The position numbers and the translations under genes were made by a program. The notes beneath the pieces were generated by a model. It saw nothing but the letters and a program-made list of their open reading frames with translations. It was not told the origin of the DNA and ran no database searches. From Methylohalomonas lacus (GTDB lineage: Bacteria > Pseudomonadota > Gammaproteobacteria > Methylohalomonadales > Methylohalomonadaceae), in the NCBI RefSeq assembly GCF_024808875.1, contig NZ_JANUCT010000004.1:124001-188000 (forward strand): a stretch of 64,000 bases of DNA, given 5' to 3'. Position 1 is the stretch's first letter. The number at the start of each line of letters is the position of its first letter. Below, piece after piece: positions 22,338 through 38,057 of this stretch.

Positions 22338-22340
22338 GTT
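22324..22340 (+). other. attL of the integrative element
   Basis: GGCCCCGGGCACCAGTT covers the 3' end of tRNA-Leu and recurs at 38042-38057 with one G missing. Together they delimit a 15.7-kb element. Confidence 0.85.
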
Positions 22341-22442
22341 AAGTATACAGAAAAATCCGCATAGGTCCACGAAACCCGCGCCACACAGGCATTTCAGGCC
22401 GCCTCTTTGTTCTCTTGAGTTCGCAATAATTCGCTTGCAACC

Positions 22443-22510
22443 GGGGTACATTGGGGGTACATTTGGGGGCATATCCTGAGAATTGGGGGTATAAATGCCC
22501 TGGGGGTACA
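22443..22510 (+). repeat. Left-end TTGGGGGTA repeats (likely integrase arm sites)
   Basis: Five close copies of (T)TGGGGGTAC/T lie at 22443, 22451, 22463, 22483 and 22500, between attL and the integrase start. Two more copies lie near attR at 37958 and 37970. This arrangement is what arm-type binding sites of a tyrosine integrase look like. Confidence 0.65.
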
Positions 22511-22514
22511 AATC

Positions 22515-23729
22515 GTGGCCGGTAAACTGACCGACAAGGCTGTTCGCGGAGCCGGTCCACTCGACAGTTCCTATAAGCTGAGTGACGGCGGCGGGTTGTA
22601 CCTGCTCGTTCATGCCAATGGATCAAAGTATTGGCGACTGAAGTATCGCTTCCACGGTAAAGAAAAGACCCTTGCCCTGGGGGTCTATCCTGATGTCAGT
22701 CTCGCCACTGCCCGAGAGGGCCGTGAGGAAGCCAAGAAACTGCTCAAGAATGGGCAGGATCCCAGCCAGCTCAAAAAGCAAGCCCGGCGCACTCAGCACG
22801 AGAATAGCAAGAATACACTGGAGGCGGTCGCTCGCCAGTGGCTTGATGTCCAGAGGGGCCAGTGGACAGAGGGGCATTTGGAGCGCGTCCGCGAATCCCT
22901 CGAGAAAGATATATTCCCGGATCTCGGGGAACGCCCCCTGACCGATATCACCCCGCCGGAATTGTTGATGGCGCTTCGCAAGATTGAAAAGCGGGGTGCC
23001 CTGGAAACCGCCCAGCGGGTCATGCAGCGTACCAGCGCGATCTTCCGTTATGGCATTGCCAGCGGCCTGTGCACTCAGAATCCCGCCTCAGAATTACGCG
23101 GCACCATAAAAACCAAGAAAGCTACCAACATGCCGGCGATGAGTGCCGCCGATCTTCCTGATTTTCTACGCAAGCTAGATGCCTACGAAGGCCGGCCGGA
23201 AACCAAATACGGTCTACAGTTGATCGTGCTTACGTTTGTCCGACCTGGTGAATTGCGCGCTGCCGAGTGGTCTGAATTTAATTTGAAAGATGCAGAATGG
23301 CGCATCCCGGCTGAACGCACAAAAATGAAAACCGAACATATCGTGCCATTGTCTGTTCAAGCCATGGAAGTGATTGAAGCCATGGAGCCGCTAACCGGTC
23401 GCAAGCGTTTTGTCTTCCCGAATCAATCCCGGCCGAAGTTGCCAATGTCAGAGAACACCCTGACTTATGCCTTATACAGAATGGGGTATCACTCGCGTGC
23501 AACGGCTCACGGTTTTCGTGCGACAGCTTCCACGATACTGAACGAACAAGGCTGGCCGCCCGACGTGATAGAACGCCAGTTGGCTCATGCTGAAAGGAAC
23601 AAAGTACGAGCTGCGTACAACAGAGCGCAGTATCTGGCGGAGCGCAGAAAGATGATGCAGGCATGGGCAGATTATTTGGATGCAATAAAGCAGGGCGCCG
23701 AGATAGTACCCATTAGTGCAGGCAAATAA
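22515..23729 (+). CDS. int: P4-type tyrosine integrase
   Basis: Site-specific recombinase (404 residues) that would insert and excise the element at tRNA-Leu. The N-terminal arm-binding domain (LSDGGGLYLLVHANGSKYW, about residues 20-100) and a SAM-like core-binding domain (about 105-200) precede the catalytic domain. The catalytic set is complete: Arg in FVRPGELR (about 242), His-x-x-Arg in HGFR (about 332), His in LAHAE and the nucleophile Tyr in AAYNR. The start is GTG at 22515. It points away from the tRNA, the standard layout for elements of this class. Confidence 0.95.
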   Translation: MAGKLTDKAVRGAGPLDSSYKLSDGGGLYLLVHANGSKYWRLKYRFHGKEKTLALGVYPDVSLATAREGREEAKKLLKNGQDPSQLKKQARRTQHENSKNTLEAVARQWLDVQRGQWTEGHLERVRESLEKDIFPDLGERPLTDITPPELLMALRKIEKRGALETAQRVMQRTSAIFRYGIASGLCTQNPASELRGTIKTKKATNMPAMSAADLPDFLRKLDAYEGRPETKYGLQLIVLTFVRPGELRAAEWSEFNLKDAEWRIPAERTKMKTEHIVPLSVQAMEVIEAMEPLTGRKRFVFPNQSRPKLPMSENTLTYALYRMGYHSRATAHGFRATASTILNEQGWPPDVIERQLAHAERNKVRAAYNRAQYLAERRKMMQAWADYLDAIKQGAEIVPISAGK

Positions 23730-23813
23730 TATTTGCTTGCAGTGAAAACTATTGAGGGCATTTTGATTAGCGGATAGCTTGTTTGCACGTTAACAAGACA
23801 ACAGGTGCAAACA

Positions 23814-24014
23814 ATGACTAACCGACTTATCAGGATGCCAGAGGTGTGCGAAAAAATTGGCATGGGGCGGACCGCTGTTTATGACCTTATGGAGCACAAA
23901 GGATTTCCGAGGCCAGTGCGACTGTCGTCACGGTATGTCGCCTGGTCTGAAGCGGAGGTTGATGAGTGGATCAACCAGCGCTTGGCGGAGCGCGACGATA
24001 CGATTAACGCCTAA
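23814..24014 (+). CDS. AlpA-family transcriptional regulator / excisionase
   Basis: A 66-residue MerR-like winged-helix protein. NRLIRMPEVCEKIGMGRTAV, a Y-x-L-M step and FPRPVRLSSRYVAWSEAEVD are the AlpA signature. In P4-like and related islands AlpA homologues activate integrase or act as excisionase. The ATG at 23814 with AGGTG upstream is preferred over a GTG three codons earlier. It lies 85 bases after the integrase. Its stop abuts a palindrome (24015-24034) that in turn contains the ribosome site of the next gene. Confidence 0.92.
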   Translation: MTNRLIRMPEVCEKIGMGRTAVYDLMEHKGFPRPVRLSSRYVAWSEAEVDEWINQRLAERDDTINA

Positions 24015-24017
24015 TCC

Positions 24018-24031
24018 GTTTCCGGGGAAAC
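24018..24031. promoter_or_regulatory. Island palindrome, copy 1
   Basis: GTTTCCGGGGAAAC, extended here to 9-bp arms (24015-24034, TCC...GGA). Its GGGG doubles as the ribosome site of the ATPase gene starting at 24036, so occupation of the site or a hairpin could switch that gene. Confidence 0.7.
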
Positions 24032-24035
24032 GGAT

Positions 24036-25628
24036 ATGCCAAAAAAAGTCAGGGGGCTGCGTGGGGAGCAGTATGAACAAGCCAAGCATGAAGCGCTGCG
24101 CGGCGAGGCCATCCAGATTGGATCGGATGTGGCCAGAATGATGGACCAGGTGCTCGAATGCCTCGAGGCAAGCCCTGCAGCGAACGTGTACCAGGCCAAC
24201 GGCCAGTTGGTCAGGATCGCCGAACAGCGAGAGCTGCGCCGGCAGTCCGCTGCAATAAAACGTCAGCAGATCACCAAGGTTGTGTCGCCGCATTCGCGGG
24301 ATTCATTGCCAGAGGCATTGGCGCGCGCCGGCGTCCATTTTGAAAAATGGAACGCGAAAGAGAAAGAATACAAACCCACAATGCCACCGCGTGAGCTGAT
24401 CTCTGCATTGCTGGCGGCGCAGAGTTACCCGAAGGTGCCGCCGCTGCAAGGCATCGTGGGTGCGCCCGTGATGCGCTCGGATGGCTCGATATTTGCAACA
24501 CCAGGCTATGATCCCAACACGGCTTTATATTTTTTCGATGATGACGAGATCGCTTGGGAGTTACCAAACAAACCTGAGCTTGTTGATGCCAGGGCGGCAG
24601 TCTGGCGCATCATTGACATATTCGAGACCCTGCCATTCTCGACCGATGGTGACCGATCGGTATTCCTAGCTGCCTTAATGACGCCGTTCATCCGGCACCT
24701 GGTTGTCTCCGCGCCGCTGTTTGCCGTGAGTGCTTCGACCAGCGGGACCGGTAAGTCAATGATCTGCGATATCCCGTCACTCATTTTCACTGGTCAGCGT
24801 GCAGCCATGATGCCACCACCGGCGACGCATGAAGAAGCGGATAAGTTACTGTTTTCCGCTTTGCTGGCCAAGGATTCGATTGTAGTACTGGATAACGTGG
24901 ATCATCCGCTCGAGTCCAATTCGCTGTGTACATATCTGACCTCTGGATCGCTCAAGCAACGTGTGCTGGGTAGTAACACCGAGGTCCATGCCAAGGCCGA
25001 TCTCATTATGTTTGCCAACGGAAACAACTTGGCTCTGGTCGGAGACCTAAATAATAGGGCGCTATCTTGCGAGCTGAGTGTCGATACCGAGCGACCGGAG
25101 ATGCGGTCATTCGATTTTGATCTCAGAGAGCGCGTACTCAATAACCGTGCGAACCTGGTGCGGGACATTCTGACCATATACAAGGCCTGGCATTTGAGCG
25201 GCTGCCCGACACCTAACGGCCTATCTGTGTTCGGACGCTTCGAACACTGGTCTCGGCTTGTACGTGAGCCGCTGGGCTGGGTGGGCTTGAATGATCCATT
25301 GGAGACGCGCACCCGCCTCATGATAGGTGACCCTGAGACAGAGAAGCTCGAGGCAATGTTAACCAGCTGGCACAACGTGTATGGCAGCGAGCGGATCAGT
25401 GTTGCTCAAATCCTGCGTGAGTTAGACACGGATATGGTGTCGCCCGAGATGCAGAACCTGGGAGATGCACTGCAGGACATAGCCGGGGATAAGGTCGGTC
25501 TCAATCGTCACCGGCTCGGAAAGTTCCTGGCGCGCAATCAGGGCCGTATTATCAATGGGTACAGAATCTTAAAGAAAGGTGTTTCAGGAAAAGTTTCACA
25601 GTGGTCAGTAGAGCTACAGGGGGTTTAG
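24036..25628 (+). CDS. P4-like replicative ATPase/helicase
   Basis: A 530-residue protein with a central P-loop ATPase. Walker A is ASTSGTGKSM near residue 240 and Walker B is SIVVLDNVDH near 285, followed by a sensor Asn (LIMFANGNN). The order and spacing resemble the helicase part of island and satellite replication proteins. No clear primase (TOPRIM or PriCT) motif is seen in the N-terminal 200 residues, so it may be helicase-only. The C-terminal ~90 residues (TSWHNVYGSERISVAQILREL) look like a DNA-binding winged helix. An origin-like inverted repeat follows immediately. Confidence 0.8.
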   Translation: MPKKVRGLRGEQYEQAKHEALRGEAIQIGSDVARMMDQVLECLEASPAANVYQANGQLVRIAEQRELRRQSAAIKRQQITKVVSPHSRDSLPEALARAGVHFEKWNAKEKEYKPTMPPRELISALLAAQSYPKVPPLQGIVGAPVMRSDGSIFATPGYDPNTALYFFDDDEIAWELPNKPELVDARAAVWRIIDIFETLPFSTDGDRSVFLAALMTPFIRHLVVSAPLFAVSASTSGTGKSMICDIPSLIFTGQRAAMMPPPATHEEADKLLFSALLAKDSIVVLDNVDHPLESNSLCTYLTSGSLKQRVLGSNTEVHAKADLIMFANGNNLALVGDLNNRALSCELSVDTERPEMRSFDFDLRERVLNNRANLVRDILTIYKAWHLSGCPTPNGLSVFGRFEHWSRLVREPLGWVGLNDPLETRTRLMIGDPETEKLEAMLTSWHNVYGSERISVAQILRELDTDMVSPEMQNLGDALQDIAGDKVGLNRHRLGKFLARNQGRIINGYRILKKGVSGKVSQWSVELQGV

Positions 25629-25730
25629 GGGGTTTTATGTATTTATTTCCTTCTACGCATGGAAAATGTCAGGATAAAGACATTTTATATATATAGAGGG
25701 AAATTGACCCCTGAAACCCCCTAAACCCCC
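25619..25730. other. Candidate replication origin: G-rich inverted repeat around an AT-rich core
   Basis: A 17-base arm at 25619-25635 (GGGGGTTTAGGGGGTTT) is repeated exactly inverted at 25714-25730. The 78 bases between contain an AT-rich run (CATTTTATATATATAG). The C-rich strand reads as tandem AAACCCCC units. It directly follows the replicative ATPase gene, where origins of P4-like elements often lie. The role is inferred. Confidence 0.5.
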
Positions 25731-25757
25731 AAACCAACCTGGGTAAGGAGAAGTGCA

Positions 25758-26009
25758 ATGCACAATGACAACGATGAGTTTGAATTCGGTAAAAAGCCTG
25801 GTGATTTAATCATCGATTCAGGTAGCCCATATTTTACGCTCGAGCACGCAGCCAACATGATGCGACTCTTGGCTGCAGTAGAACCGGAACATATCAGCGA
25901 TGGTAGGGCAGCAACGGCCTATAGCATGTTAGCTAATCACTGTGCCAAGGCTGTTGAATACGCGCACCATCAATTCAGGGAACAGGAGCGTAAGCCGGAG
26001 GCCGCCTAG
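25758..26009 (+). CDS. Small hypothetical island protein
   Basis: An 83-residue acidic protein with good coding character and an AAGGAG before the ATG. The segment FTLEHAANMMRLLAAVEPEHISDGRAATAYSMLANHCAKAVEYAHHQFRE looks entirely helical. There are no membrane segments and no family I can name; small helical proteins like it are common beside island replication genes. Copy 2 of the island palindrome and an otherwise empty 255-base gap follow. Confidence 0.65.
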   Translation: MHNDNDEFEFGKKPGDLIIDSGSPYFTLEHAANMMRLLAAVEPEHISDGRAATAYSMLANHCAKAVEYAHHQFREQERKPEAA

Positions 26010-26123
26010 CTAGCGGGTCCTTCTGGTCCTGCGCGCGCTGCGGTAATCGCGACCGCGGCATGTGTGTAGTCGGCGGGTACCGGGCATGGTGATCGCATGA
26101 ATAGTGGTGAGATCAGTGATCGC

Positions 26124-26137
26124 GTTTCCGGGGAAAC
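26124..26137. promoter_or_regulatory. Island palindrome, copy 2
   Basis: GTTTCCGGGGAAAC in the gap between the small protein gene and the HEPN-like gene, about 137 bases ahead of the latter. Confidence 0.65.
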
Positions 26138-26144
26138 GTAAAGG

Positions 26145-26255
26145 ATGCGGCCAGAAAAATGGGTCCATGCATACGTGATGCATAGCGGCGTTTGGAATTT
26201 GGCAGAAATGTACCGCCGGTGGACTCATCATTCGTTGCTGACACTAAACGCTTAA
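26145..26255 (+). CDS. Possible 36-aa peptide
   Basis: A short frame (begins MRPEKWVHAYVMHSGVWNLA) fills most of the gap before the HEPN-like gene and ends 18 bases ahead of it. It is basic and aromatic. The ribosome site is poor and I know no relative, so it may be chance. Confidence 0.2.
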   Translation: MRPEKWVHAYVMHSGVWNLAEMYRRWTHHSLLTLNA

Positions 26256-26273
26256 GCCACCAAGGTGGTTTCC

Positions 26274-27065
26274 ATGGAAAAATCTAAACCGAACCCGAAT
26301 GACGCCTTTTATAAAAAGGCTGAACAGGCTTTTCGTAGCCTTTTTGATACAGCTTGCACAAAACACGAACTGCACTTCGCTATGGCGCTTATGCCGGAAA
26401 TGCGTGGTATGCAGGACGCCGGTTGGAATACGGCAGCTGAAACCCAGCATGCATTCGATGAGTATCTGGAATTTCTAAGCACACTCGAAGATGGAAGGAT
26501 GAAGTGTCGTATCGCTTTAAGTTTCTATAGCCATATCTCTGAAGCGAGCGGCTTTTATGAAGTACCAAAAAATATGCTGCGAATAGCAGGTGGTCAAAGC
26601 CATGTATTGTGGCCATTTATGGAGCTTGTCCAATCGCATAAACAAACGGGCGCTCAGATTGCGCCAAACGCAAATAAAGTTCTGAAGGATCTCGCCGGAC
26701 ATGCTAAAGAGTTAGGTCTAAACGATCTCGCAGAAATATTTAGAGATGCCTTTGATCCAGATGTGCGGAATGCTTATGTTCATGCCGACTATGTCGTATG
26801 GAATGATGGGCTACGCCTTCCCAAGCGAAATGGTGGGTATGCCAGGAAGATCCCATGGGATGAGTTCACTATTATCTTCGATCGAGGCGTCAATTTTTTT
26901 CACATATTGCGCGAGATAATTAGTGAATATATTCGATCTTATGACCCACCGAAAACAATCAGAGCACGGCTACAACAAGAGCCGGAAGCAGACTGGACAA
27001 TATACTATGATGCTAACTCCGGTGGTTTTGGAGTTACAAGTGGAAAGTATCCTAAGGATACCTGA
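26274..27065 (+). CDS. HEPN-like accessory protein
   Basis: A 263-residue protein, AT-richer than its neighbours. Near residue 164 the sequence RNAYVHADYV contains R-x4-H, the ribonuclease signature of HEPN domains, in a helical context with preceding acidic residues (EIFRDAFDPDV). Such proteins are often RNases in toxin-antitoxin or abortive-infection systems. No nucleotidyltransferase partner gene is next door. The ATG at 26274 with AGGTGG five bases upstream is preferred to GTG 26265. The fold assignment rests on one motif and is tentative. Confidence 0.5.
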   Translation: MEKSKPNPNDAFYKKAEQAFRSLFDTACTKHELHFAMALMPEMRGMQDAGWNTAAETQHAFDEYLEFLSTLEDGRMKCRIALSFYSHISEASGFYEVPKNMLRIAGGQSHVLWPFMELVQSHKQTGAQIAPNANKVLKDLAGHAKELGLNDLAEIFRDAFDPDVRNAYVHADYVVWNDGLRLPKRNGGYARKIPWDEFTIIFDRGVNFFHILREIISEYIRSYDPPKTIRARLQQEPEADWTIYYDANSGGFGVTSGKYPKDT

Positions 27066-27191
27066 CAAGCGATTAGAGATGGACGCGGAAAGTTGCGCGA
27101 CGTTCAAATCTATCGTTCCTTGTAGAACTCTTTGGTGATAAGAGACATGCAATTTGTTATTAATCTTAATATTCACATGGAGGCCAATTAA

Positions 27192-27821
27192 ATGCACAAA
27201 AACAATGTCTCTCGCAGCCCGAAACCACGCAACAATTCATTAACGCCGATTGATAGCACTGATGCGCGACAGGTAGAAATAATTAAGGACGGTCACGAAG
27301 AGGCGCTTAGAAGGGAAGAACTATGGCGCAATAAAGGACTGACCATGCTTGCATCTGGTGACCCAGATGAACGATGGTTAGGAACCATGATGATAGGCCT
27401 CATTGATGATCATGTGGTCAATTACCGTTTTGGAAAAGATGGCAAGCGAACAGGAAAAAAGAGTAGCGATTTTGAACGGCTAATGTTCAAGTACATTTAT
27501 CGATATCTCCCCGGACCTGGAGAGCACAGATTTACACTTAGGTATGCTAAGTCAGGCAGAAAGCAGGAAGAAAAAATAAGGGACTGCTATTTGAAATTGT
27601 TTTCCTATGGCTATTCAGAAAATGATATAGAGTTGATCATGCACTACATCAATGATGGCTACATTGATAAATTTTCTGATTTTGTAAATAAAGACTCTAG
27701 GTTGGTGGATATGTGTGATGAACTTTTTGAAATGGCCGAGACGAACGATAATCAATCACCCAAAAAAGCCCGTTCTATCAAGAAAAGGAAGGAACGGCTG
27801 ATCGAAGAAGGCTTGTTATAA
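27192..27821 (+). CDS. Hypothetical AT-rich island protein
   Basis: A 209-residue basic, soluble protein with a strong GGAGG eight bases before the ATG. It has a disordered N-terminus (about 45 residues), then helical segments (GDPDERWLGTMMIGLIDDHV and DFERLMFKYIYRYLPGPGEH), and a lysine-rich tail (KKARSIKKRKERLIEEG). The tail suggests nucleic-acid contact. I recognise no family. With the HEPN-like gene before it, it forms a markedly AT-rich accessory patch, typical of cargo. Confidence 0.6.
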   Translation: MHKNNVSRSPKPRNNSLTPIDSTDARQVEIIKDGHEEALRREELWRNKGLTMLASGDPDERWLGTMMIGLIDDHVVNYRFGKDGKRTGKKSSDFERLMFKYIYRYLPGPGEHRFTLRYAKSGRKQEEKIRDCYLKLFSYGYSENDIELIMHYINDGYIDKFSDFVNKDSRLVDMCDELFEMAETNDNQSPKKARSIKKRKERLIEEGLL

Positions 27822-27855
27822 TACTGAGTCCGTCGGTTTAATCAGGGGGATTTAA

Positions 27856-28437
27856 ATGCCGCGGCTGACACGGATTCACCAGATCGCGATAGCGGCGACA
27901 CTGCTCTACCTTTGCCTGTACGGCTTTGTATTTTATGACGCCAGCCCCCAGACCGTGGCCGATCGCGTGGCGCTATTCACCGGTTTTTTTACACCGCTGG
28001 CATTAATCTGGGTTGTTGCTGGTTTCTACCAGCAGCGCGAGGCAATCCGCGATACTAGGCGAGCACTGGAACTGTCCGAACGCGCTGAACGGGCTAGGCT
28101 GCGATCCGTACAACCTGTAATCGAAATGATAAAACCACCCGGTAGATATACCGATCACAAACTAGAGCTGAGAAACCACGGCGTGCCGGCAACACAGGTG
28201 GAAATCACTTGTTCGGAAACCGAGCAAATTCACAAGAAGGAATTATTTGGCTATCTTGAGCTCTGGGCCATCCCATGGCCTGACCTGTTCCCCGGCCATG
28301 AGGGCCCGCTGGTATTCCGCATCACCTATTTTGATGCGACCCACGCCCTGCAAACACAGGAATATGTCTACGAAAACGAGCAGTTCACCCGTCGCGGCTC
28401 GCTGCCACTCGACCCGCCCGATAAAGACAATCACTGA
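27856..28437 (+). CDS. Two-helix membrane protein with cytoplasmic domain
   Basis: A 193-residue protein with two N-terminal membrane helices (about 9-28 and 38-58), a short coiled coil (QQREAIRDTRRALELSERAERARL, about 60-85) and a beta-rich C-terminal domain. The layout resembles many uncharacterised island proteins with a hairpin anchor and coiled coil. GGGGG precedes the ATG. GC content returns to the island average here, unlike the two preceding genes. No function can be assigned. Confidence 0.65.
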   Translation: MPRLTRIHQIAIAATLLYLCLYGFVFYDASPQTVADRVALFTGFFTPLALIWVVAGFYQQREAIRDTRRALELSERAERARLRSVQPVIEMIKPPGRYTDHKLELRNHGVPATQVEITCSETEQIHKKELFGYLELWAIPWPDLFPGHEGPLVFRITYFDATHALQTQEYVYENEQFTRRGSLPLDPPDKDNH

Positions 28438-28588
28438 AATGACAGCGTGAGCTCCGAGGTCTGCTGAAGGTGACATTTATCGTTACGACCCTGCAGGCAT
28501 AAGCAGGCCAACGCCATTTCCTCGTACTAGCCGTGCGCAGCTACAGTATCTCAGGGCGCTGTCACCCAAACCCCAACCATAATGCTTT

Positions 28589-28615
28589 ATGCAAGGTAAT
28601 AATATTATCTTGCAT
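28589..28615. promoter_or_regulatory. 27-bp near-perfect palindrome (candidate operator)
   Basis: Two 13-base arms (ATGCAAGGTAATA and its complement with one mismatch) flank a single A. It lies in the 341-base gap ahead of the capsid module and has the size of a repressor or activator operator. A small TCCGCC-ATAA-GGCGGA hairpin follows at 28634-28649. Confidence 0.6.
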
Positions 28616-28683
28616 CTGTTGTTCTTTTCTTAATCCGCCATAAGGCGGAATATAGTAACCGTATCAGTAGTCATGAAATATTT

Positions 28684-28740
28684 GTGCTGCCCCGGAGGTT
28701 TAATACTTTATCCACGCTGGAGTTTCTCCGGGGTCAGCAC
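28684..28740 (+). promoter_or_regulatory. Long hairpin ahead of the head protease gene
   Basis: GTGCTGCCCCGGAG at 28684-28697 pairs with CTCCGGGG-T-CAGCAC at 28726-28740 (14 bp, one bulge) around a 28-base loop, followed by ATTTTT. It could be an attenuator or terminator controlling entry into the structural genes. Confidence 0.6.
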
Positions 28741-28778
28741 ATTTTTAAAAATTGGATATACTGGGAACAAACAGATTT

Positions 28779-29834
28779 ATGGAGTTTTCGGGCAATCAAC
28801 GCATATTAGCTTCGCTCACCAGTGAGCCCTGGCTGATACAGCGCAACTATCTCGACACGATAGTCAGCATCGCCCAGCGCCTGAACGACGTTCCGGAGTC
28901 TTTGCTGTCGCAGCTCAAGGAAAAGCAGCAGGCAAACGAAGCGGTGTTGAGCCGCATCGGCCGACCGCTGGTAGGCACTCACCGTGTCATTCTGCGTGAC
29001 AACGCCGCGATTGTACCGGTGCGTGGTCCCATATTCCGCTACGCCAATCTGTTTACTGAGATCAGTGGCGCCACGTCGATACAGGTACTGGCTACGGATC
29101 TGCAGCAAGCCATCGAATCCCCCAGCGTTACACGCATCATCCTGGATATCGACTCGCCGGGCGGCCAGGTGACCGGCACCAGTGAATTTGCCGAACAGGT
29201 TCGCAACTCCGGAAAACCCATTGATGCCTATGTCAGCGGTACCGGTGCCTCTGCGGCTTACTGGATTGCCTCGGCAGCCGATCGCGTCATTGCGCGTGAT
29301 ACAGCCATTCTGGGGTCGATCGGTGTGGTCTCCCGTGTATTTCGTGATGAGGACAACGGCTCGATTAAGTTCATCTCCAGTCAGTCGCCCAGGAAACACG
29401 CCGATCCCGCGTCGGACTCTGGCCGCGACAGCTACCAAGCGATGGTCGACAGTCTCGCGCAGGTTTTCATCCAGACTGTCGCGACCTATCGCGGCGTGGA
29501 TACCGAAACCGTTCTGGCCCGTTACGGGCAGGGTGCTTTACTTGTAGGGCAGCAAGCGGTCAATGCCGGTATGGCTGATGCACTCGGGTCGCTTGAATCC
29601 TTGGTTGCCGGCATCAGCAGCAAAAGTTCGAATTACAGGAAAGTGTCACAAGCCAGGATGATAGATAGTGCGCAGCAGGCCGATGCCAATGATGAAGTGG
29701 ACAAACTGAATGACTGGCGATGGCTGGCAGCCGAGTGCAAACGTGAGGTTAAACAGGCTAAAGAGCGCGGCTATCCTCTGAGTTATGCTGCAGCAGCTGA
29801 CCGTGTAGTCAAATCGTTATCAAGCAAGGATTGA
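28779..29834 (+). CDS. S49-family phage head maturation protease
   Basis: SppA/S49-type serine protease of about 351 residues, the kind that cleaves scaffold and capsid during head assembly. The ClpP-like core shows RIILDIDSPGGQVTG (oxyanion region) and the nucleophile in GTGASAAYWIASAADRV, followed by AILGSIGVVS. The C-terminal ~60 residues are charged and helical and could act as an internal scaffold. The ATG at 28779 is chosen; a TTG at 28752 is also open. It is followed 18 bases later by the capsid gene, the usual protease-capsid order. Confidence 0.88.
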   Translation: MEFSGNQRILASLTSEPWLIQRNYLDTIVSIAQRLNDVPESLLSQLKEKQQANEAVLSRIGRPLVGTHRVILRDNAAIVPVRGPIFRYANLFTEISGATSIQVLATDLQQAIESPSVTRIILDIDSPGGQVTGTSEFAEQVRNSGKPIDAYVSGTGASAAYWIASAADRVIARDTAILGSIGVVSRVFRDEDNGSIKFISSQSPRKHADPASDSGRDSYQAMVDSLAQVFIQTVATYRGVDTETVLARYGQGALLVGQQAVNAGMADALGSLESLVAGISSKSSNYRKVSQARMIDSAQQADANDEVDKLNDWRWLAAECKREVKQAKERGYPLSYAAAADRVVKSLSSKD

Positions 29835-29852: not shown

Positions 29853-30788
29853 ATGCAGACAAGAGCGCCATTCATCATAAACCCGGTATACACGGCCATT
29901 GTGGTCGCTTACACCAATCAGCGTTATATCGCGGATCAGGTTCTGCCACGCGTCTATGTCGGCCGGCAGGATTTTGCCTATATCAAGATGAACCTGGAAC
30001 AGCATTTTACAATTCCAACCACTTTTGTAGGTCGACGTAGCCGTACGAATGAGATCAGTTTCTCTGCCGATGAGGAAGTTGAGTCCACTGAGGATTATGG
30101 TCTTGAGGACCCTGTGCCCAATCGCGATATTGATAACGCACCGAAAAATCACGATCCATTGGCGAATAGCAGTGAATCGCTCATTGATATCGTTATGCAA
30201 GATCGCGAACAGAGGGTCGCTAATCTAGTATTTGATGCCGATAGTTATTCTGCATCCAACAGGATGACATTATCAGGTTCAGATCAATGGCATGATCCGG
30301 CATCCAGACCGATTGACATTATCATGGACGCGATGGACAGCATGATCATGCGACCCAATGTGCTGGTGCTGGGGCGCAAGTCATTCAGCGCTCTCATCCG
30401 GAATCCGCAGATCGTCAAGGCTTATCACGGCAATACGGGTGACACAGGTATCGCAACACGTGATTTTATAACCGAACTGTTTGAGCTGGATGAAGTGGTT
30501 GTTGGCGAGGCCAGGACCAATATCGCCAAAAAGGGACAGCCGGTGACCCTGGCGCGTCTCTGGGGGAACCATGCCAGCTTAACAGTAAGAGACAGACTGA
30601 TCAGCTCACCACGAGATGGTCGCATTACTTTTGGTTTTACCGCCCAATTTGGCGAGCGTCTTGCAGGAGAACAGGAGGATCCCGATATAGGCCTGATGGG
30701 CGGGATCCGTCTGCGTGTTGGTGAAAGCCTCAAGGAGCTTATCACAGCCAAGGATCTTGGCTATTTCATCCAAAATGCGGCGGCCTAG
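29853..30788 (+). CDS. Phage major capsid protein
   Basis: A 311-residue protein that I recognise as a siphophage-type major capsid protein. Characteristic stretches are AYTNQRYIADQVLPRVYV, STEDYGLEDPVPNRDIDNAP, the paired DREQRVANLVFD and LFELDEVVVGEA, and the C-terminal KELITAKDLGYFI. The protein would form the icosahedral shell. No N-terminal scaffold-like delta domain is apparent, consistent with the scaffold being supplied by the protease gene or elsewhere. The gene is intact. No portal or terminase accompanies it. Confidence 0.85.
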   Translation: MQTRAPFIINPVYTAIVVAYTNQRYIADQVLPRVYVGRQDFAYIKMNLEQHFTIPTTFVGRRSRTNEISFSADEEVESTEDYGLEDPVPNRDIDNAPKNHDPLANSSESLIDIVMQDREQRVANLVFDADSYSASNRMTLSGSDQWHDPASRPIDIIMDAMDSMIMRPNVLVLGRKSFSALIRNPQIVKAYHGNTGDTGIATRDFITELFELDEVVVGEARTNIAKKGQPVTLARLWGNHASLTVRDRLISSPRDGRITFGFTAQFGERLAGEQEDPDIGLMGGIRLRVGESLKELITAKDLGYFIQNAAA

Positions 30789-30822: not shown

Positions 30823-31170
30823 ATGGGCATTACATCTAACGGCAATCAAACTGACACTATCAAGCTCAGCAATGAAGAGCTGGATGCGCGGGCTGAAGAA
30901 TATAGAAAATCCCAAGACGAACAAGGATTTTTTGTAACATTCCATGAAGCCCGAGCAATTGTTATACGCGAGCATGCTAATTCGCTGCGCTCGCAGTCAG
31001 CAGCAGACTATAAAACCGAAAGGCGCAAGATTCACGCTGATGCACGCCAGCAGGCAAAAGCTATTTACCAACAGGCGCTTGAGTACAAAGGGCAGCAGGC
31101 CAACCTGGGCATCAATATCAGCATGGTCGATGCGGTTAATCACGTTCGCAAACAAATCGATCAGGATTGA
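30823..31170 (+). CDS. Small helical protein of the structural module
   Basis: A 115-residue, highly charged, almost wholly helical protein (EELDARAEEYRKSQDEQ; AADYKTERRKIHADARQQAK) with GAGG before the ATG. It sits directly after the capsid gene, where phages usually carry head decoration or connector genes, but I cannot match it to one. A scaffold or tail-assembly role is possible. A 285-base gap with two island palindromes follows. Confidence 0.65.
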   Translation: MGITSNGNQTDTIKLSNEELDARAEEYRKSQDEQGFFVTFHEARAIVIREHANSLRSQSAADYKTERRKIHADARQQAKAIYQQALEYKGQQANLGINISMVDAVNHVRKQIDQD

Positions 31171-31311: not shown

Positions 31312-31325
31312 GTTTCCCCGGAAAC
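31312..31325. promoter_or_regulatory. Island palindrome, copy 3
   Basis: GTTTCCCCGGAAAC, the same 14-mer as the other copies but in inverse orientation. It lies in the 285-base gap between the small helical gene and the tape measure gene, where I see no gene. Confidence 0.65.
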
Positions 31326-31349
31326 GCTTCCGCCCTACCATTTTTCAAC

Positions 31350-31419: not shown

Positions 31420-31424
31420 TTTCC

Positions 31425-31438
31425 GTTTCCCCGGAAAC
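31425..31438. promoter_or_regulatory. Island palindrome, copy 4
   Basis: GTTTCCCCGGAAAC, extended to CC...GG flanks, 17 bases ahead of the tape measure start codon. Confidence 0.7.
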
Positions 31439-31455
31439 GGCTATAGGGGGCCAGA

Positions 31456-34437
31456 ATGACCACGACCGTCATCGAAACCGCGATACGAGCGGATACCCAG
31501 CAGGCACGGCGCGAGACGCGGGCCTTCACGCGCCAGTTCCAGTCCGACTTCCAGCGCATGGCTGGCACCGCGCAGACCAGCGGCCAGCAGATCCAACAGG
31601 CCGCGCAGCGGCTTGGCCTTCGTTCCTACCGTGAAATCAACCAGGAAATCCGCCGGCTGCAGAACAGCTATCGCATTGCGGCCAATTCGAGCCAGCTGTC
31701 AGCGCGACAGCAGGTCATCGCCCAGCAGCGGCTGCGTGACGGTGTCCGTCAGCTGCGCCGCGAGCAATCCGGCTACAACCAGATTATCTCGGATGCCCGT
31801 AGTGGGCTGTTGGGCCTGGCTGCGGTTACTGCCGGCGTGGGCTTCGCACTCAGCCGCGCCGGCCGGCGGGCGTTGGAATTCAGCCAGGGCATGGCCGAGG
31901 TATCGACCCTGCTGCCACAGGCGGGAAACAATCTCAGAGAGCTGCGCCGGGGCGTGCGCGAGGTGAGCGTAGCGCTCGGCCAGGATGCCGTCCAATCGAC
32001 CCAGGCGCTTTACAATATCATCTCGTCAGGCGTGCCAGAGGGCAACGCCATCGAGGTGCTCGAGCAATCCGCACGTGCTGCTGTGGCCGGCGTGACGGAT
32101 ACGAATACAGCCGCACGTGCCGGCCTGGCGGTACTGAATGCTTACGGCCGTGAGGTTGGCGACCTCGAGAGTATCTATGACGTTCTGTTCAGTACTGTTA
32201 AACAGGGTGTCACCACGCTGCCGGAGCTGGCGCAGAATCTCGGCCAGGTGCTGCCCATTGCCAGTGCCGCAGAGGTGCCGATAGAAGAATTAACGGCGGC
32301 AATTGCCGAGCTGACCAAGGCCGGCGTGAACACACCCCAGGCGACCACAGCACTGCGCGGGGCCATAACGGCCCTGCAGACGCCGACGGACAGCGCTGCC
32401 AAGGCCATGCGCGAGCTCGGCATCGAGTTTGATGGTCTGTTCGGCACACTGGACCAGATCGCCAATCTTGACCTTACCGCCCAACAGATCCGCGAGATTG
32501 TGCCTGAAACCGAGGCCCGCACGGCCGTGTTGGCATTGACGGACAACCTGGACGGGCTTAGGACCTCCCTAGAGGCGATGTTTGATGCGGCCGGCGCCAC
32601 ACAGAATGCCTATGGTCGCATCGAAGACACGCCGCAGCAGCGCATGGCCCGCTTCAAATCGACTGTAGACGATCTGCAGACCTCGTTAGGCGCACTGGCC
32701 GTCGATGGGGCGCTGCCTGTTGCTGAGGCCTTTGCAGACGTTCTGGAAGCTGTAGAGAATCTAAACCCGTCCATGCAGACCCTGCTGGGCGTTCTCGGTA
32801 CCGCTGCAGCCGGCAAGCTGCTGTGGGTCGCTGGCCTGAGCAGCTTGACCCGGGCTGCATATACGGCCGCAGCAGGCGTGAACTTCCTCAGTCTCGCGAT
32901 CAAGGGCGTCCCGCTTTTACTGCTGGGCTCATTGGCTGTAGAGGTCGGCACGAAAATAATGAATCACCGGCGCGAGGTGCAAAAGCTCGCCGATGAATAT
33001 GAGCGCTTCAAGGAACAGGCGCAGCAGAACATTGACGATCTCGAGCAATACAAGGATGTGCAGATTTTGACCGAGACCCAGCTGCAAAGCCTGACTGATG
33101 CCGAGCGACGTGAATATGCCGAGCGGCTGCGCAATTCAGAGCGCTACTGGAAGCAGCAGCGTGAACTGACTTCACGTGAGGCGGAACGAGCCTCACGGAC
33201 AAGGCTTGACCCTGTCCTGGGTCGCGAAATCATTGATAGAAACGAAGATCCAGATACGTTCGATCCGATCATGGGCCGATCTATCGAGCCACGCGAAGTG
33301 TGGTCTCCAGGTGACGAGGAACTCGAGGCAGCCCGGCAGGCGCGCGTCAGGGACAAGGCCTTGCGAGAGCTTGACGCCCAGCTGAAACAGCGTGAGGCGC
33401 TCCAGGAAGAGCACGCCGACAAGGTGCGACGCATCAAGGCCGATGAGAATAATGCGATTCGTCGCTCCCTGGCCGAACAGGTCAGTCTTTACAAAGACGC
33501 CCAGAAAGAACTACAGCGCGTAGTCGATGAAAGAGAGGCTATTGAGCAGGAATTCAGGGAGCTCACTGAACGTATCCGCAGTGGCGGCGACCAGGGCGCA
33601 GATACGCTCGATTTTATTGATATTGCTAGCATTCAAAATCAGGCTCAGCAGGCGCTGAATGCCGGCGAATTCGAGCGCTCCATACAACTTGCGCGCCGCG
33701 CCGGCGAGGGCCTCGAGGCCCTACAGCAGGCGGGTGATAGTAACAGGCTGGCGCTCTCCGGCGTGGCCGAGGCGATCAGGCGTATCGCAAACGATGCCGC
33801 GGCCGCCCGTGAGGAAGCGCAACAGGCGGAAGTCGACCAGATACAAACCACCATCAATGAACTGGTCGAGCGTTTCAAGGCACTTCAAACCATTGAAATT
33901 GGCTTTGACGAGGACAATGCCAGGCAGCGGGCGGATAACATCCTCAAGGCCATTCAGGAACAGCTGAACCAGTCGCCAGTGCAGATCCCGGTAGAGATCA
34001 CGTCTCCCGATGCGCCGAAGCTGAGTGTCGCTGATGAGCTGCTACGCCGGGTCGAGGGCCGCGCCGGCGGCGGCATGCTCAAGGGCCCGGGCACCGATAC
34101 GAGCGACAGTTTACTGATTGCCGCCAGCAACAATGAATACGTTTTGCGGGCTGCAGCCGTAAAGCGTTTAATGAGCCAGTACGGCCGCGGATTTCTGGAT
34201 CAGCTGAACGCCACTGGTCGCATTCCTGGCTTTGCCTCCGGTGGACTGATCAGCCAGATAGACATACCGAGCCTGTCGCACGAAGCGATGTCCGCCGCCG
34301 GTGGCAGTAACGAAACACCAATCAATCTATATTGGCCAGATGGCAGAAGCACGCAGGTCAAGGCAGACAAAAACGCCGCCCGTGAAATTCGGGAAGTCTT
34401 TGGCAAGGCCGCCCTGCAGGCCGGAAAGGGGAATTAA
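31456..34437 (+). CDS. Phage tail tape measure protein
   Basis: A 993-residue protein with the tape-measure core: MAEVSTLLPQAGNNLRELRR, SSGVPEGNAIEVLEQSARAA, KAGVNTPQATTALRGAITAL and GIEFDGLFGTLDQIANL. Hydrophobic segments lie near residues 118-136 and 440-490. A long coiled-coil-rich middle (about 500-800) and a C-terminal KGPGTDTSDSLLIAASNNEY motif complete it. In phages it sets tail length, about 0.15 nm per residue, which here would suggest roughly 150 nm. GGGGG precedes the ATG. No tail tube, assembly chaperone or tip genes flank it. Confidence 0.93.
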   Translation: MTTTVIETAIRADTQQARRETRAFTRQFQSDFQRMAGTAQTSGQQIQQAAQRLGLRSYREINQEIRRLQNSYRIAANSSQLSARQQVIAQQRLRDGVRQLRREQSGYNQIISDARSGLLGLAAVTAGVGFALSRAGRRALEFSQGMAEVSTLLPQAGNNLRELRRGVREVSVALGQDAVQSTQALYNIISSGVPEGNAIEVLEQSARAAVAGVTDTNTAARAGLAVLNAYGREVGDLESIYDVLFSTVKQGVTTLPELAQNLGQVLPIASAAEVPIEELTAAIAELTKAGVNTPQATTALRGAITALQTPTDSAAKAMRELGIEFDGLFGTLDQIANLDLTAQQIREIVPETEARTAVLALTDNLDGLRTSLEAMFDAAGATQNAYGRIEDTPQQRMARFKSTVDDLQTSLGALAVDGALPVAEAFADVLEAVENLNPSMQTLLGVLGTAAAGKLLWVAGLSSLTRAAYTAAAGVNFLSLAIKGVPLLLLGSLAVEVGTKIMNHRREVQKLADEYERFKEQAQQNIDDLEQYKDVQILTETQLQSLTDAERREYAERLRNSERYWKQQRELTSREAERASRTRLDPVLGREIIDRNEDPDTFDPIMGRSIEPREVWSPGDEELEAARQARVRDKALRELDAQLKQREALQEEHADKVRRIKADENNAIRRSLAEQVSLYKDAQKELQRVVDEREAIEQEFRELTERIRSGGDQGADTLDFIDIASIQNQAQQALNAGEFERSIQLARRAGEGLEALQQAGDSNRLALSGVAEAIRRIANDAAAAREEAQQAEVDQIQTTINELVERFKALQTIEIGFDEDNARQRADNILKAIQEQLNQSPVQIPVEITSPDAPKLSVADELLRRVEGRAGGGMLKGPGTDTSDSLLIAASNNEYVLRAAAVKRLMSQYGRGFLDQLNATGRIPGFASGGLISQIDIPSLSHEAMSAAGGSNETPINLYWPDGRSTQVKADKNAAREIREVFGKAALQAGKGN

Positions 34438-34438
34438 T

Positions 34439-34849
34439 ATGGGAAAATATGATCATCTGAGCTTGGACGAGCTCATTAAGAAGGCAAGAGCAGTAATACC
34501 CATTAACCATGTGGAGCGGTTAATTAAACTGAGCCAAGAGCGACGTGTTAATTTTATAGAAAAGCAGGGTCTGCAATGCGCTGCTTGCCAACAAGAAAAA
34601 GAGCCTGACGGGCTCGTTTATTTCTTTTTTGATATCAGTGATCAAATTAATCAGGATGCCAACCGGCAGTATCCGATTGGTTTCAAGAGTCCGCCGAAAG
34701 GATGGCACTTCACTTTTTGGGTGTGCGAGAAATGCCGGGTCCAGCATGTCCGCAATCCATTTGAAGTAAGGCTCGCGTGCATGGACTTTTATTGCTTAAA
34801 ACTTACGGGAAGAGGGATTTTTGACAGCGACAACCAAGTTATGATGTAA
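34439..34849 (+). CDS. Zinc-ribbon-like hypothetical protein
   Basis: A 136-residue protein starting two bases after the tape measure stop (AGGGGA upstream). Two Cys-x2-Cys pairs, CAAC near residue 42 and CEKC near 101, are spaced like a split zinc ribbon. The remainder is mixed helix and strand with aromatic residues (GWHFTFWVCEKCRV). Tight spacing implies co-expression with the tape measure gene. I know no phage family that fits, and its role in tail assembly or regulation is open. Confidence 0.65.
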   Translation: MGKYDHLSLDELIKKARAVIPINHVERLIKLSQERRVNFIEKQGLQCAACQQEKEPDGLVYFFFDISDQINQDANRQYPIGFKSPPKGWHFTFWVCEKCRVQHVRNPFEVRLACMDFYCLKLTGRGIFDSDNQVMM

Positions 34850-34897
34850 GAAGCCATAGGCAGTGTCCGAAATATAAACCACCATATGGAGTGAGCT

Positions 34898-35086
34898 ATG
34901 AGTAAAACAGAACAATGCCTGATGAAGCTAAGGCATAACGGCAAAGTGTACAACATCGGTGATCCGGCACCGTCTGCATCCAATGCAGATCTGGAAGCCT
35001 GGCGCGCCGCTGGCGTGATTGGTCATGCAGCTGACAAGCCCAAGGCGGGGCAGGCGTCTGATTCCGCTGAGGATGACAGCAATTAG
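34898..35086 (+). CDS. Small phage protein (DUF7210-like)
   Basis: A 62-residue protein with GGAG before the ATG. The N-terminal half (CLMKLRHNGKVYNIGDPAP) and WRAAGVI resemble small proteins found in phage structural modules with the pattern 'L-x-HxGKxYxxGD...L-xxxGVI'. The C-terminus is an acidic, disordered tail. It probably belongs to the tape measure transcript. A 221-base gap with no gene follows; it contains a small GTCAC/GTGAC hairpin at 35273-35289. Confidence 0.6.
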   Translation: MSKTEQCLMKLRHNGKVYNIGDPAPSASNADLEAWRAAGVIGHAADKPKAGQASDSAEDDSN

Positions 35087-35307
35087 CTATTCAGAGCTCT
35101 CATCATCGGATGGCTGAGTTAATGCGCTCCTAGCATCGTCGGGAACCTCTTCTAGCACTGATTCGTTTTTCTCAGATGATGATCATTTCGCGTAACTGGC
35201 GCACAGTGATCGTTACAATAACGAAGAAGTCGAACTGCAGCGTTTGCCTGTAGATCTAGGTGTTTAATGCATGTCACGTTTTATGTGACGGCCTGGTTAT
35301 ATAGCCG

Positions 35308-36720
35308 CTACTTCAGAAAGTCCTCCAAACGCGGCGGCGGATCCTCGGTGTTTGTAATTAAGGTCTGCGACCACAGGATAGAGGTTTCATAGAAGCTCCG
35401 GCAGACTTTCTCGCCTCCCTGATCGAACCAATGGGTTGCTTCGGGAAGAAGTTCAAATGATACAGGGTAGCGAGCAAAGGGATTATGGAAAACCTCTAGC
35501 TCGGCTGACCAAGGTTCGTAGCGTTGCGGCCAAAGCTCCCGATATTCTTCGCTTGTTATGTCTAGGCAGAAGGGAGCCCCTCTCAGGGCGCCCGGCGTCC
35601 GGTCGAAAAAATTGCCCATCCGTGTATAACGAAGACCCTTAGGGGCTCCTTGTCCGGACACTGCTACTCTATTGAGTTTTCCAATGGAACAGGCATTCGT
35701 GAAAATTACAGCAGATAATTCGGCCTGGCGCCCATCAGTAAACAAGCCGGCCGGAAATGATGAGTCACCGATCAATTGTGCTGCGGCTATCCTTTCAACT
35801 TGATTGCGCCCATTAATTTCTACCTCCCGCCAGCCCTCTCCATAGAGGTAGCCGATCAAGGCCTCACGGCTCCACAACATCGATGCCGGTGCTTGGAAAT
35901 CTGCGATCGCGATCATGAATGGATGGCCCGTTACATGCGGAAGCTGCTCATAGTGCCGGCCGAGCTTATTTCCGAGAGTCTTTGCAAAACGCTCTGCGGC
36001 CGACCCGAAAAAGATTTCCTCTCGATCAGCCGGTGCAGCGCTACGAGGTGTATTGACATGATTGTAAGCTACTGGCGGATTGGCCGTTACGGCCTCTACC
36101 CAGGCGACCCCTCCAAGCCTGTTTTCAATACGGAAGTCTGGAGACTCATGGGGTTGCGTTACACGTAACCCTTGCTCCCGAAACGCCGCCAACAACTGCG
36201 CTTCCCACAGCCGCGTATGAAAATTATTTGTCTGGCAATCACTGGCCCAGTTCTGATCGGGCTTAGGGAGCGCGAGATAGAGTTGGTTAAGTGTCCACGC
36301 TGCTGGGTGATGCGACAAAGATGTGAGCGTCGCAAACACCTCGCTGGGTTGCCTCCCCTGCAGATCGTAAAGTGCCGCCCGCTGGGTGACACCAGGAGGC
36401 ACAGATTCGGGTTGTTCCCCTTCCTTTAAAAGTGGCTGCAATAGCGAGAGGGCCTCTTCTCGTGCGACAAAATCATTGCGCTCAGCAATTACCGTCCAAA
36501 CGTGATCCGTGCGCCGTCTTATAACAATCAATCCAAATGATCGATCGTTTATATTCTGGGTTAGGATCCCGCACGAAAGCCCATCAAAGCTTTGCCAGGC
36601 GCCGACAGGTGGTTGCTCTCCAAAACTGTGACCTCTCGGCAACGACAATGCGTAGATATCGAATTCCCATTGCGACAGCGGCTTCATATCGTCAACTATT
36701 GTTGGGTCAGTCCCTGTCAT
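35308..36720 (-). CDS. Cargo protein with PD-(D/E)xK nuclease-like core
   Basis: A 470-residue protein on the strand opposite to the structural genes, a placement typical of satellite or prophage cargo. The middle shows a pattern like the PD-(D/E)xK fold: Glu173 in RLWEAQLLAAF, then SPDF (Asp195) and VAWVEAVTA (Glu209). The usual Lys two residues after the Glu is Val, so the active site is altered or the assignment is wrong. Flanking domains are unrecognised. The ATG at 36720 or 36687 could start it; neither has a good ribosome site. A defence role is possible but inferred. Confidence 0.55.
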   Translation of the reverse strand: MTGTDPTIVDDMKPLSQWEFDIYALSLPRGHSFGEQPPVGAWQSFDGLSCGILTQNINDRSFGLIVIRRRTDHVWTVIAERNDFVAREEALSLLQPLLKEGEQPESVPPGVTQRAALYDLQGRQPSEVFATLTSLSHHPAAWTLNQLYLALPKPDQNWASDCQTNNFHTRLWEAQLLAAFREQGLRVTQPHESPDFRIENRLGGVAWVEAVTANPPVAYNHVNTPRSAAPADREEIFFGSAAERFAKTLGNKLGRHYEQLPHVTGHPFMIAIADFQAPASMLWSREALIGYLYGEGWREVEINGRNQVERIAAAQLIGDSSFPAGLFTDGRQAELSAVIFTNACSIGKLNRVAVSGQGAPKGLRYTRMGNFFDRTPGALRGAPFCLDITSEEYRELWPQRYEPWSAELEVFHNPFARYPVSFELLPEATHWFDQGGEKVCRSFYETSILWSQTLITNTEDPPPRLEDFLK

Positions 36721-37017
36721 TGGGCGCGTGTGACTCCTTATTGTCGATCATCGCAAGAATCAACTGCGCTGCCCTCTGGTAGGTCCGTAATTGGATTGAT
36801 ACCTGAGTAATACAGAATGCCCATGGCGCGGATGTAAGTCTAATAGCCGTGCTGCGGTGCAAGATATTATACTGAGATTTACAGGACTTAATGGCATATG
36901 CACTTTACGCCGAAAGAACCCGTATCCGAATCAGTCGGTTATGCCGTGGCCCTGTCATCGTGTAAAGTTGCTGGCCCGCAATTCAGGCGGTGTGGCAAGC
37001 TGGCATTGAGAGTGGAT

Positions 37018-37031
37018 GTTTCCGGGGAAAC
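37018..37031. promoter_or_regulatory. Island palindrome, copy 5
   Basis: GTTTCCGGGGAAAC, 24 bases ahead of the small membrane protein gene at 37056. It lies in the 335-base gap between that gene and the divergent nuclease-like gene, which otherwise appears non-coding and should hold both promoters. Confidence 0.65.
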
Positions 37032-37055
37032 GCCCAGAGAAGGGGAGAGCCAGCA

Positions 37056-37313
37056 ATGGCAGCCGATCAACAGTCGCTATTTTTAATCATCTTCGCCATT
37101 AACCTAGTGGTCGCCGTGTTCGTATTGATGGCACTGTATGCCGCCCAGAAATGGGCGCATCAGACGTACAGGCAGGTCAAACGGATAGCAGATGCCCTGG
37201 AGCCTGAGCTGAGGGAGGCGCGCAACCTGCGCAATGCCAGCCAGCCGGCATCAGCCAAGCGCCACAGTTCGCAGAATATCCGTGATGCCTATATCAACGA
37301 CAGCACGGATTGA
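37056..37313 (+). CDS. Small single-span membrane protein
   Basis: An 85-residue protein with one N-terminal membrane helix (LFLIIFAINLVVAVFVLMALY) and a basic helical cytoplasmic tail ending in polar residues. GGGGAG lies nine bases upstream of the ATG at 37056, so I prefer it to an upstream start in the same frame. The shape would suit a lysis-accessory or holin-like protein, but no endolysin gene is present and the class is too generic to call. Confidence 0.6.
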   Translation: MAADQQSLFLIIFAINLVVAVFVLMALYAAQKWAHQTYRQVKRIADALEPELREARNLRNASQPASAKRHSSQNIRDAYINDSTD

Positions 37314-37326
37314 CCGTTGTGAAGCC

Positions 37327-37701
37327 TTAGCGCTTGCTGCGTAAACCCGGATAGATATAAGCGTAGGCTCGCTCCAGCCGCTTCTTGAATGTTTCCGGTG
37401 TGCACTGGCATTCCTTCGCCTTCTTTTGCCGGCCGCCCTGGTTCAAGTATTCGGCCAGTACCACTGCCCTGAGCACCTGGGGCAGATTCAGCACGCAGCG
37501 CTCGGTGTGCATCGCCTGCTCATCGCTGTTGTATATGGGCGGGGTTGAGCCCGGATCAGTGCCGCGACGATGATTGCTGATCCAGTTCACGCGTCGATTC
37601 CAGCCCAGACCATTGACCTCGAGCCGGGCCGACCACTCCGCCCAGGCCTCGAGGCAGCGCTGCGCATAAGCCCGCTGGCTTTCTGTAAGCTCAGATGACA
37701 T
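37327..37701 (-). CDS. Phage antiterminator-Q/sigma-like regulator
   Basis: A 124-residue protein. The order of a Trp-rich N-terminal half (LEAWAEWSARLEVNGLGWNR), a 'CVLNLPQVLRAVVLAEYL' helix and a terminal helix-turn-helix (KAKECQCTPETFKKRLERAYAY) resembles phage antiterminator-Q or sigma-region-4-like proteins controlling late genes. It overlaps the preceding small HTH gene by 11 bases, so the two are one transcript. Located at the right end, it could control the structural module, a role that is inferred. Confidence 0.6.
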   Translation of the reverse strand: MSSELTESQRAYAQRCLEAWAEWSARLEVNGLGWNRRVNWISNHRRGTDPGSTPPIYNSDEQAMHTERCVLNLPQVLRAVVLAEYLNQGGRQKKAKECQCTPETFKKRLERAYAYIYPGLRSKR

Positions 37702-37894
37702 AAATTCGGCATCTGTAGTTACAGATGCTTATGATAGTCGATCTGGAAGAATCAAATTTCTTGGCGATGGTGCCATAGCCGAGGCCATGGTTCTCATGCA
37801 GCTCGCGAATCAGCCGCACATCATTGTCGCTGAGCTTCGCCTTGGGGTGAGATTCGCCGGCGCGGTGGCCTGAGGGAGCGATGGTAAGGCGCAT
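37691..37894 (-). CDS. Small helix-turn-helix protein
   Basis: A 67-residue protein. After a basic start, HPKAKLSDNDVRLIRELHENHGLGYGTIAKKFDSSRSTIISI contains a resolvase-type helix-turn-helix (YGTIAKKFDSSRSTI). I quote it here in parts: the recognition helix is SSRSTIISI. Proteins like this occur in phages as regulators or as the DNA-binding arm of HNH nucleases; no nuclease domain is present. It is the first gene of a minus-strand pair reading away from attR. Confidence 0.6.
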   Translation of the reverse strand: MRLTIAPSGHRAGESHPKAKLSDNDVRLIRELHENHGLGYGTIAKKFDSSRSTIISICNYRCRIYVI

Positions 37895-37957
37895 GGCGGT
37901 AGAGCCTCCGAAACGTTACGATAATCCCTGCACACCCGATTTTTAGGGCCTCGTGCC

Positions 37958-37980
37958 TTGGGGGTACAATTGGGGGTATA
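37958..37980 (+). repeat. Right-end TTGGGGGTA repeats
   Basis: TTGGGGGTACA at 37958-37968 and TTGGGGGTATA at 37970-37980 repeat, in the same orientation, the set found inside the left end of the element. They lie about 60 bases inside attR. Confidence 0.65.
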
Positions 37981-38041
37981 TACCAATGCTTTATTTTCGA
38001 AATGCCCGTTATACAGGCCTCTCAGGGCGAAATATTAGAGA

Positions 38042-38057
38042 GGCCCCGGCACCAGTT
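38042..38057 (+). other. attR of the integrative element
   Basis: GGCCCCGGCACCAGTT repeats the tRNA-Leu 3' end present at 22324-22340, lacking one G of the GGG run. The flanking sequence differs on both sides, which fixes the right border of the element. Confidence 0.82.

Follow-up and report, generated by a model that had tools for sequence, protein, structure and literature searches.

A 15.7-kb integrated element occupies positions 22,324–38,057 of the DNA analysed here, a 64,000-nt window of contig NZ_JANUCT010000004.1 from Methylohalomonas lacus. The element sits in a leucine tRNA gene of the 2.76-Mb genome and joins integration and P4-like replication genes to a partial virion kit of prohead protease, major capsid protein and tape measure (Table 1). 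We assigned its open reading frames (ORFs) by profile searches of Pfam, PHROGs and NCBIfam, and its defence gene with PADLOC. A preliminary description, made from the letters alone, had proposed an integrase, AlpA, a P4-like ATPase, an S49 protease, a capsid protein and a 993-aa tape measure, and family matches place each of them. It had also called the genes intact and closely packed; all are open, with a coding fraction of 0.86.

The rest of the virion was not recognised. Terminase, portal, connector and tail tube, already thought absent, gave no match among the main element ORFs scanned against Pfam and PHROGs (E ≤ 0.1). The same databases returned no HNH endonuclease, the Endonuclease_7 match (E = 0.097) being non-significant. 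No tail assembly chaperone was recognisable beside the tape measure gene, in the 285-bp gap on its 5′ side. Relatives that still hold terminase or portal genes were looked for too, and none was found.

The protein sequences of the kit point to B3-like and Mu-like phages. The capsid protein is 55% identical to those of phages B3 and Ps60 (Beetrevirus) at 99% coverage. It is at most 58% identical to that of any of 155 B3-type loci from genomes and viral contigs, and thus was not recently acquired from any phage among them. Residues S167 and K206 of the protease, presumably the S49 catalytic dyad, are conserved in an alignment with the protein of the B3-like phage contig L184. Only 18 bp separate the protease and capsid genes, whereas phages with such heads mostly have DUF2190 in between. 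The C-terminus of the adjacent 115-aa protein resembles a prohead protease or scaffold end, making a scaffold role possible. The closest tape measures are those of the B3-head siphophage contig L226 (37% identity over the full length) and of a Mu-like element in genome G308 (36%).

Two palindromes found only in the element precede replication and structural genes alike. The motif GTTTCC(SS)GGAAAC (GTTTCCSSGGAAAC) has five copies genome-wide, every one of them inside the element; were the sites randomly placed, the chance of this would be about 6e-12. A 25-bp palindrome (TGCARGNNAATAATATTNNCTTGCA) has two sites genome-wide at up to 2 mismatches, again both in the element. We read both palindromes as putative operators. 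Their positions indicate a regulon that belongs to the element and includes the structural genes, an arrangement left unexplained if these were the remnant of a decayed prophage.

Regulators at the right end suggest a further tie to B3-like phages. Homologues of the paired helix-turn-helix (HTH) and sigma-like genes sit in L184 directly before a terminase-portal-S49-capsid late operon. We infer that the pair shares either a phage source or a regulatory logic with that contig.

Table 1. Features of the element and its integration site, in window coordinates.
Feature	Coordinates	Strand	Evidence or remark
tRNA-Leu(UAA) split by group I intron; integration site	21893..22337	+	sequence; Rfam Intron_gpI match
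attL core GGCCCCGGGCACCAGTT	22324..22340	+	end of exon 2; agrees with right end save one-base gap
Left arm-type repeats TGGGGGTAYA, 3 copies; putative integrase arm sites	22446..22510	+	sequence
Tyrosine integrase, P4/CP4-57 type	22515..23729	+	PF00589, PF13356, PF22022
25-bp palindrome TGCARGNNAATAATATTNNCTTGCA, copy 1	23717..23741	+	before AlpA
AlpA regulator	23805..24014	+	PF05930, 3e-20
Palindrome GTTTCCSSGGAAAC, copy 1	24018..24031	+	4 bp before ATPase start
P4-like replication ATPase	24036..25628	+	phrog_29234, 3e-97; phrog_19930, 3e-17
83-aa ORF	25758..26009	+	no Pfam or PHROGs family
Palindrome GTTTCCSSGGAAAC, copy 2	26124..26137	+	before 266-aa ORF
266-aa cargo ORF (formerly 'HEPN-like')	26265..27065	+	no family in Pfam, PHROGs or PADLOC
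209-aa ORF	27192..27821	+	no Pfam, PHROG or phage match
193-aa membrane protein, common to L063 element	27856..28437	+	tblastn 34% over 47 aa, E = 5e-5; 25% full length
25-bp palindrome TGCARGNNAATAATATTNNCTTGCA, copy 2	28590..28614	+	before protease-capsid genes
S49 prohead protease, 360 aa, TTG start	28752..29834	+	PF01343, 4e-21; phrog_53, 7e-71
Major capsid protein, B3/Mu-like	29853..30788	+	phrog_1005, 9e-90; profile matches PDB 3bjq
115-aa helical protein	30823..31170	+	49% over 35 aa to contig L188, E = 9e-5; weak
Palindrome GTTTCCSSGGAAAC, copy 3	31312..31325	+	before tape measure
Palindrome GTTTCCSSGGAAAC, copy 4	31425..31438	+	17 bp before tape measure start
Tape measure protein, 993 aa	31456..34437	+	PF10145, 4e-31; TIGR01760; phrog_991
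136-aa protein with CxxC motifs	34439..34849	+	1 bp 3′ of tape measure gene; no family
62-aa ORF	34898..35086	+	non-significant DUF7210 match only
PD-T7-1-like anti-phage defence gene, cargo	35308..36720	-	PADLOC, 8e-65
Palindrome GTTTCCSSGGAAAC, copy 5	37018..37031	+	before small membrane protein
Small membrane protein	37059..37313	+	sequence; weak spanin-like match, 0.011
Sigma-70 region 4-like regulator (Q-like)	37327..37701	-	L184 homologue, 39%, 4e-8
HTH regulator paired with sigma-like gene	37691..37894	-	53% to L184, 2e-11; HTH_38
Right arm-type repeats, 2 copies	37953..37981	+	sequence
attR core GGCCCCGGCACCAGTT	38042..38057	+	copy of GGCCCCGGGCACCAGTT one base shorter

Integration site and remaining genes

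The element has defined ends. The tRNA-Leu(UAA) gene ends at 22,337, and a degenerate copy of its 3′ end (GGCCCCGG-CACCAGTT) ends at 38,057. The motif TGGGGGTAYA lies at the two element ends only, at 22452, 22484, 22501, 37959 and 37971, five occurrences against 0.09 expected in the window. The tRNA gene itself carries a group I intron, in an apparently gammaproteobacterial genome, and the element joins the 3′ end of its second exon. Rfam RF00028 (Intron_gpI) matches at 21918–22259 with E = 3e-9 and 41.4 bits, below its gathering score of 50. ARAGORN names just Gly and Cys tRNAs in this region, missing tRNA-Leu(UAA) because the intron splits the gene.

The ATPase aligns only with the helicase part of primase-helicase families. 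Just 3′ of its gene lies an imperfect inverted repeat (GGGGGTTTAGGGGG, 25619–25730) with 52-nt arms that are 77% complementary, possibly an origin or a terminator. The HEPN-like label once given to the 266-aa ORF found no support in the family searches. Searches of a phage collection with the 209-aa, 115-aa and sigma-like proteins gave no matches.

Partial virion kits in other genomes

Other genomes hold tRNA-integrated elements with partial virion kits of their own. L063 (genome G084, 4267–19391) is a 15.1-kb element at tRNA-Pro with a perfect 46-bp attachment (att) repeat. Besides an integrase, AlpA and a DUF927 primase it encodes a capsid-like protein, two ORFs resembling chaperones (PF10109, weak; phrog_7608) and a tape measure of 841 aa, and the 193-aa protein has a homologue there. 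L065 (genome G222), about 9 kb at tRNA-Ser with a 14-bp att repeat, has an integrase, a weak AlpA match and an AAA ATPase, and its only virion gene is a tape measure. L035 (genome G127, 9334–19097) spans 9.7 kb at tRNA-Leu(CAA) with a perfect 58-bp repeat, and contains an integrase-sized gene, a related P4-like ATPase, a small terminase, a protease-capsid fusion and a neck protein (neck1). No large terminase or portal was seen in the examined parts of these three elements, whose small unannotated ORFs were not all scanned. They are separate assemblies whose capsids and tape measures come from different lineages, which makes the trend one of convergence and not of a single family.

The capsid of L063 is a candidate identified by its relatives, namely phages that encode this protein as a fusion, placed after a Mu-I-type protease, and not by fold. 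Profile comparison of L063-type capsids with B3 capsids and PDB sequences was negative, and structure prediction for their relatives (pLDDT 28) was of no use. A weak phrog_836 match in L063 marks a possible late activator.

Tape measures also turn up in other settings. The G308 element (L059, 4670–18870) is a 14.2-kb Mu-like transposable element with repressor, transposase, MuB, GemA and Mor genes, a GTACTTTG target duplication and host genes on its flanks; a 982-aa tape measure is its sole recognised structural gene. It could be a transposable satellite that carries a tape measure, or else a prophage with an internal deletion. A phage contig with a 66% identical tape measure lacks the MuB of this element. 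We rejected the idea that it is merely a shortened L226-like phage; L226 lacks the transposition gene of the G308 element. In genome G197, a 683-aa tape-measure-like gene (L325, 4711–6762, minus strand) has no obvious phage neighbours. L060, L062, L066, L311 and L326, with related tape measures or the L063-type capsid in ordinary-prophage-like contexts, were not retained as satellites.

A probable satellite and its alternatives

The element is probably an integrated phage satellite that makes hybrid particles with a siphophage helper. Its intact genes, its defined ends in a tRNA gene, the palindromes confined to it and the regulators it has in common with a B3-like phage all favour this. So do the independent partial-kit tRNA elements with their att repeats, and the tape measure of PICI-like elements (PLEs), where PICI stands for phage-inducible chromosomal island, is a precedent (PMC12987554).

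Such a satellite would be triggered by growth of a helper with a long non-contractile tail, probably Mu/B3-like. The element would then excise and replicate, and the HTH/sigma-like pair and the palindromes would turn on its genes. Satellite capsid protein and protease would build the heads, and the satellite tape measure would go into the tails. Portal, terminase, connectors, tail tube, chaperones, baseplate and lysis would come from the helper. The product would be a hybrid particle carrying satellite DNA, with head size and tail length set by the satellite, while the PD-T7-1-like gene would guard the host from competing phages.

Several observations weigh against this reading. The att cores differ by one base and attR is degenerate, and the protease is short, at 360 aa against 456 aa in L184. 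No small terminase, packaging site or tail chaperone was recognised in the element. A helper prophage with a differing capsid and tape measure, which the preliminary description had suggested looking for, was not found in the genome: large terminases of the phrog_2 or GpA type are absent from it, as is any further capsid or tape measure that matches those of the element. The same gene order, which that description had also suggested seeking in other genomes, did not recur: the exact set was found only once, and other loci hold only differing partial sets. None of the 155 B3-type capsid loci, from two collections, has this ATPase, nor the element's integrase or AlpA, and siblings sought in viral contigs with single capsid and ATPase proteins did not appear.

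An incomplete set of structural genes would also suit an interference island. Such an element would travel as a satellite in ordinary helper particles, its capsid and tape measure serving as dominant-negative decoys against the assembly of helper heads and tails and forming one defence load with the PD-T7-1-like gene. The presence of that gene in the same element fits, and tail assembly is already known as a defence target (PMC11364771, PMC12987554). A decoy, however, has no need of its own protease beside the capsid gene. Full-length tape measures, and the chaperone-like genes next to that of L063, look built for assembly. The tape measure of PLEs enters virions, and its deletion lowers transduction by 96–99.9% (PMC12987554). 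We therefore consider interference by decoys unlikely.

A satellite had been preferred to simple decay from the start, a preference now supported by the element-only palindromes and the independent partial-kit tRNA elements. Decay would mean a B3-like remnant, stripped of terminase, portal and tail genes, that shares its locus with a P4-like integrative element. This would explain the Mu/B3-type origin of capsid and tape measure and their order, which is that of such phages with the connector/tube block gone; mismatched att cores and a shortened protease fit it as well. Yet broken genes and adjacent phage-gene remnants are absent, the tape measure and protease genes bear palindromes common to the replication genes, and unrelated partial-kit elements have perfect att repeats. 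B3-like phages transpose and, to our knowledge, have no tRNA integrase. Decay is thus unlikely as well. Several ORFs without an assigned family (83, 266, 209, 193 and 136 aa) would leave room for a small phage that is complete in itself, with a terminase and portal so divergent that present profiles miss them. None of them is long enough for a portal or for the usual large terminase of about 450 aa or more, and tail tube, baseplate and lysis set are absent from the profile results, making such a phage very improbable.

Comparison with known satellites and phages

The element shares parts with several known systems and differs from each. Beetrevirus and other B3-like transposable siphophages, the kin of its capsid, have terminase, portal, DUF2190, connectors, tail tube and baseplate in genomes of about 38–40 kb. 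An S49-type protease adjoins the capsid gene in L184 and in Vibrio phage VPHZ6, as here. With P4-like satellites the element has in common an integrase, AlpA, a P4-type/alpha-type ATPase, a tRNA site and defence cargo. The hallmarks of P4-like elements are psu/sid and related genes (PMC8628076); psu, sid and delta are not among the element's Pfam/PHROG matches, dedicated P4 profiles not having been run, and it has its own capsid and protease instead.

What defines capsid-forming PICIs (cf-PICIs) is a complete set of head and packaging genes, which includes portal, connectors, both terminase subunits and HNH (PMC10690885). Like them, the element supplies a major capsid protein and a head maturation protease of its own. 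It lacks Pfam/PHROGs matches to portal, head-tail connectors, large and small terminase and HNH, and so falls outside the cf-PICI definition.

PLEs of Vibrio cholerae (PLE11, PLE1 and PLE4, compared here by description) resemble the element in having a tape measure gene. They encode a tape measure and a chaperone and build tails that are chimeric, containing tube and baseplate parts of the helper, as reported in March 2026, and some cf-PICIs have putative tape measure genes (PMC12987554 and its Extended Data Fig. 10). PLEs use helper capsid proteins and encode a tail chaperone, with a baseplate hub in PLE11, whereas the element has its own capsid and protease and no recognised chaperone or hub. 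A satellite-encoded tape measure alone is therefore no longer new, which qualifies the preliminary statement that no described satellite with this combination was known. For the full combination that statement appears to hold: a capsid with its protease and a tape measure, but neither terminase nor portal, appears undescribed in the accessible literature, subscription papers and preprints aside.

More tentatively, and at somewhat under an even chance, the element may belong to a separate, convergently built class of satellites whose own genes cover only what gives the virion its specificity (shell, shell protease and/or tail ruler), with portal, motor and tube taken from a helper. L063, L065 and possibly the Mu-like G308 element would follow the same trend. 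Satellite shells would then need to be compatible with a portal of foreign origin, and satellite rulers with a foreign tube, which would make testable how a capsid accepts a portal that is not its own. Head type and tail length would be the parts whose ownership benefits a parasite, and functional satellites may be hidden under the annotation 'defective prophage'. The present element would carry the PLE tape-measure finding over to elements that have no PLE ancestry. Known satellites follow one of two routes, remodelling the capsids of the helper or producing a complete head-packaging set and taking helper tails; here the hybrid joint would lie inside the capsid, at the portal vertex.

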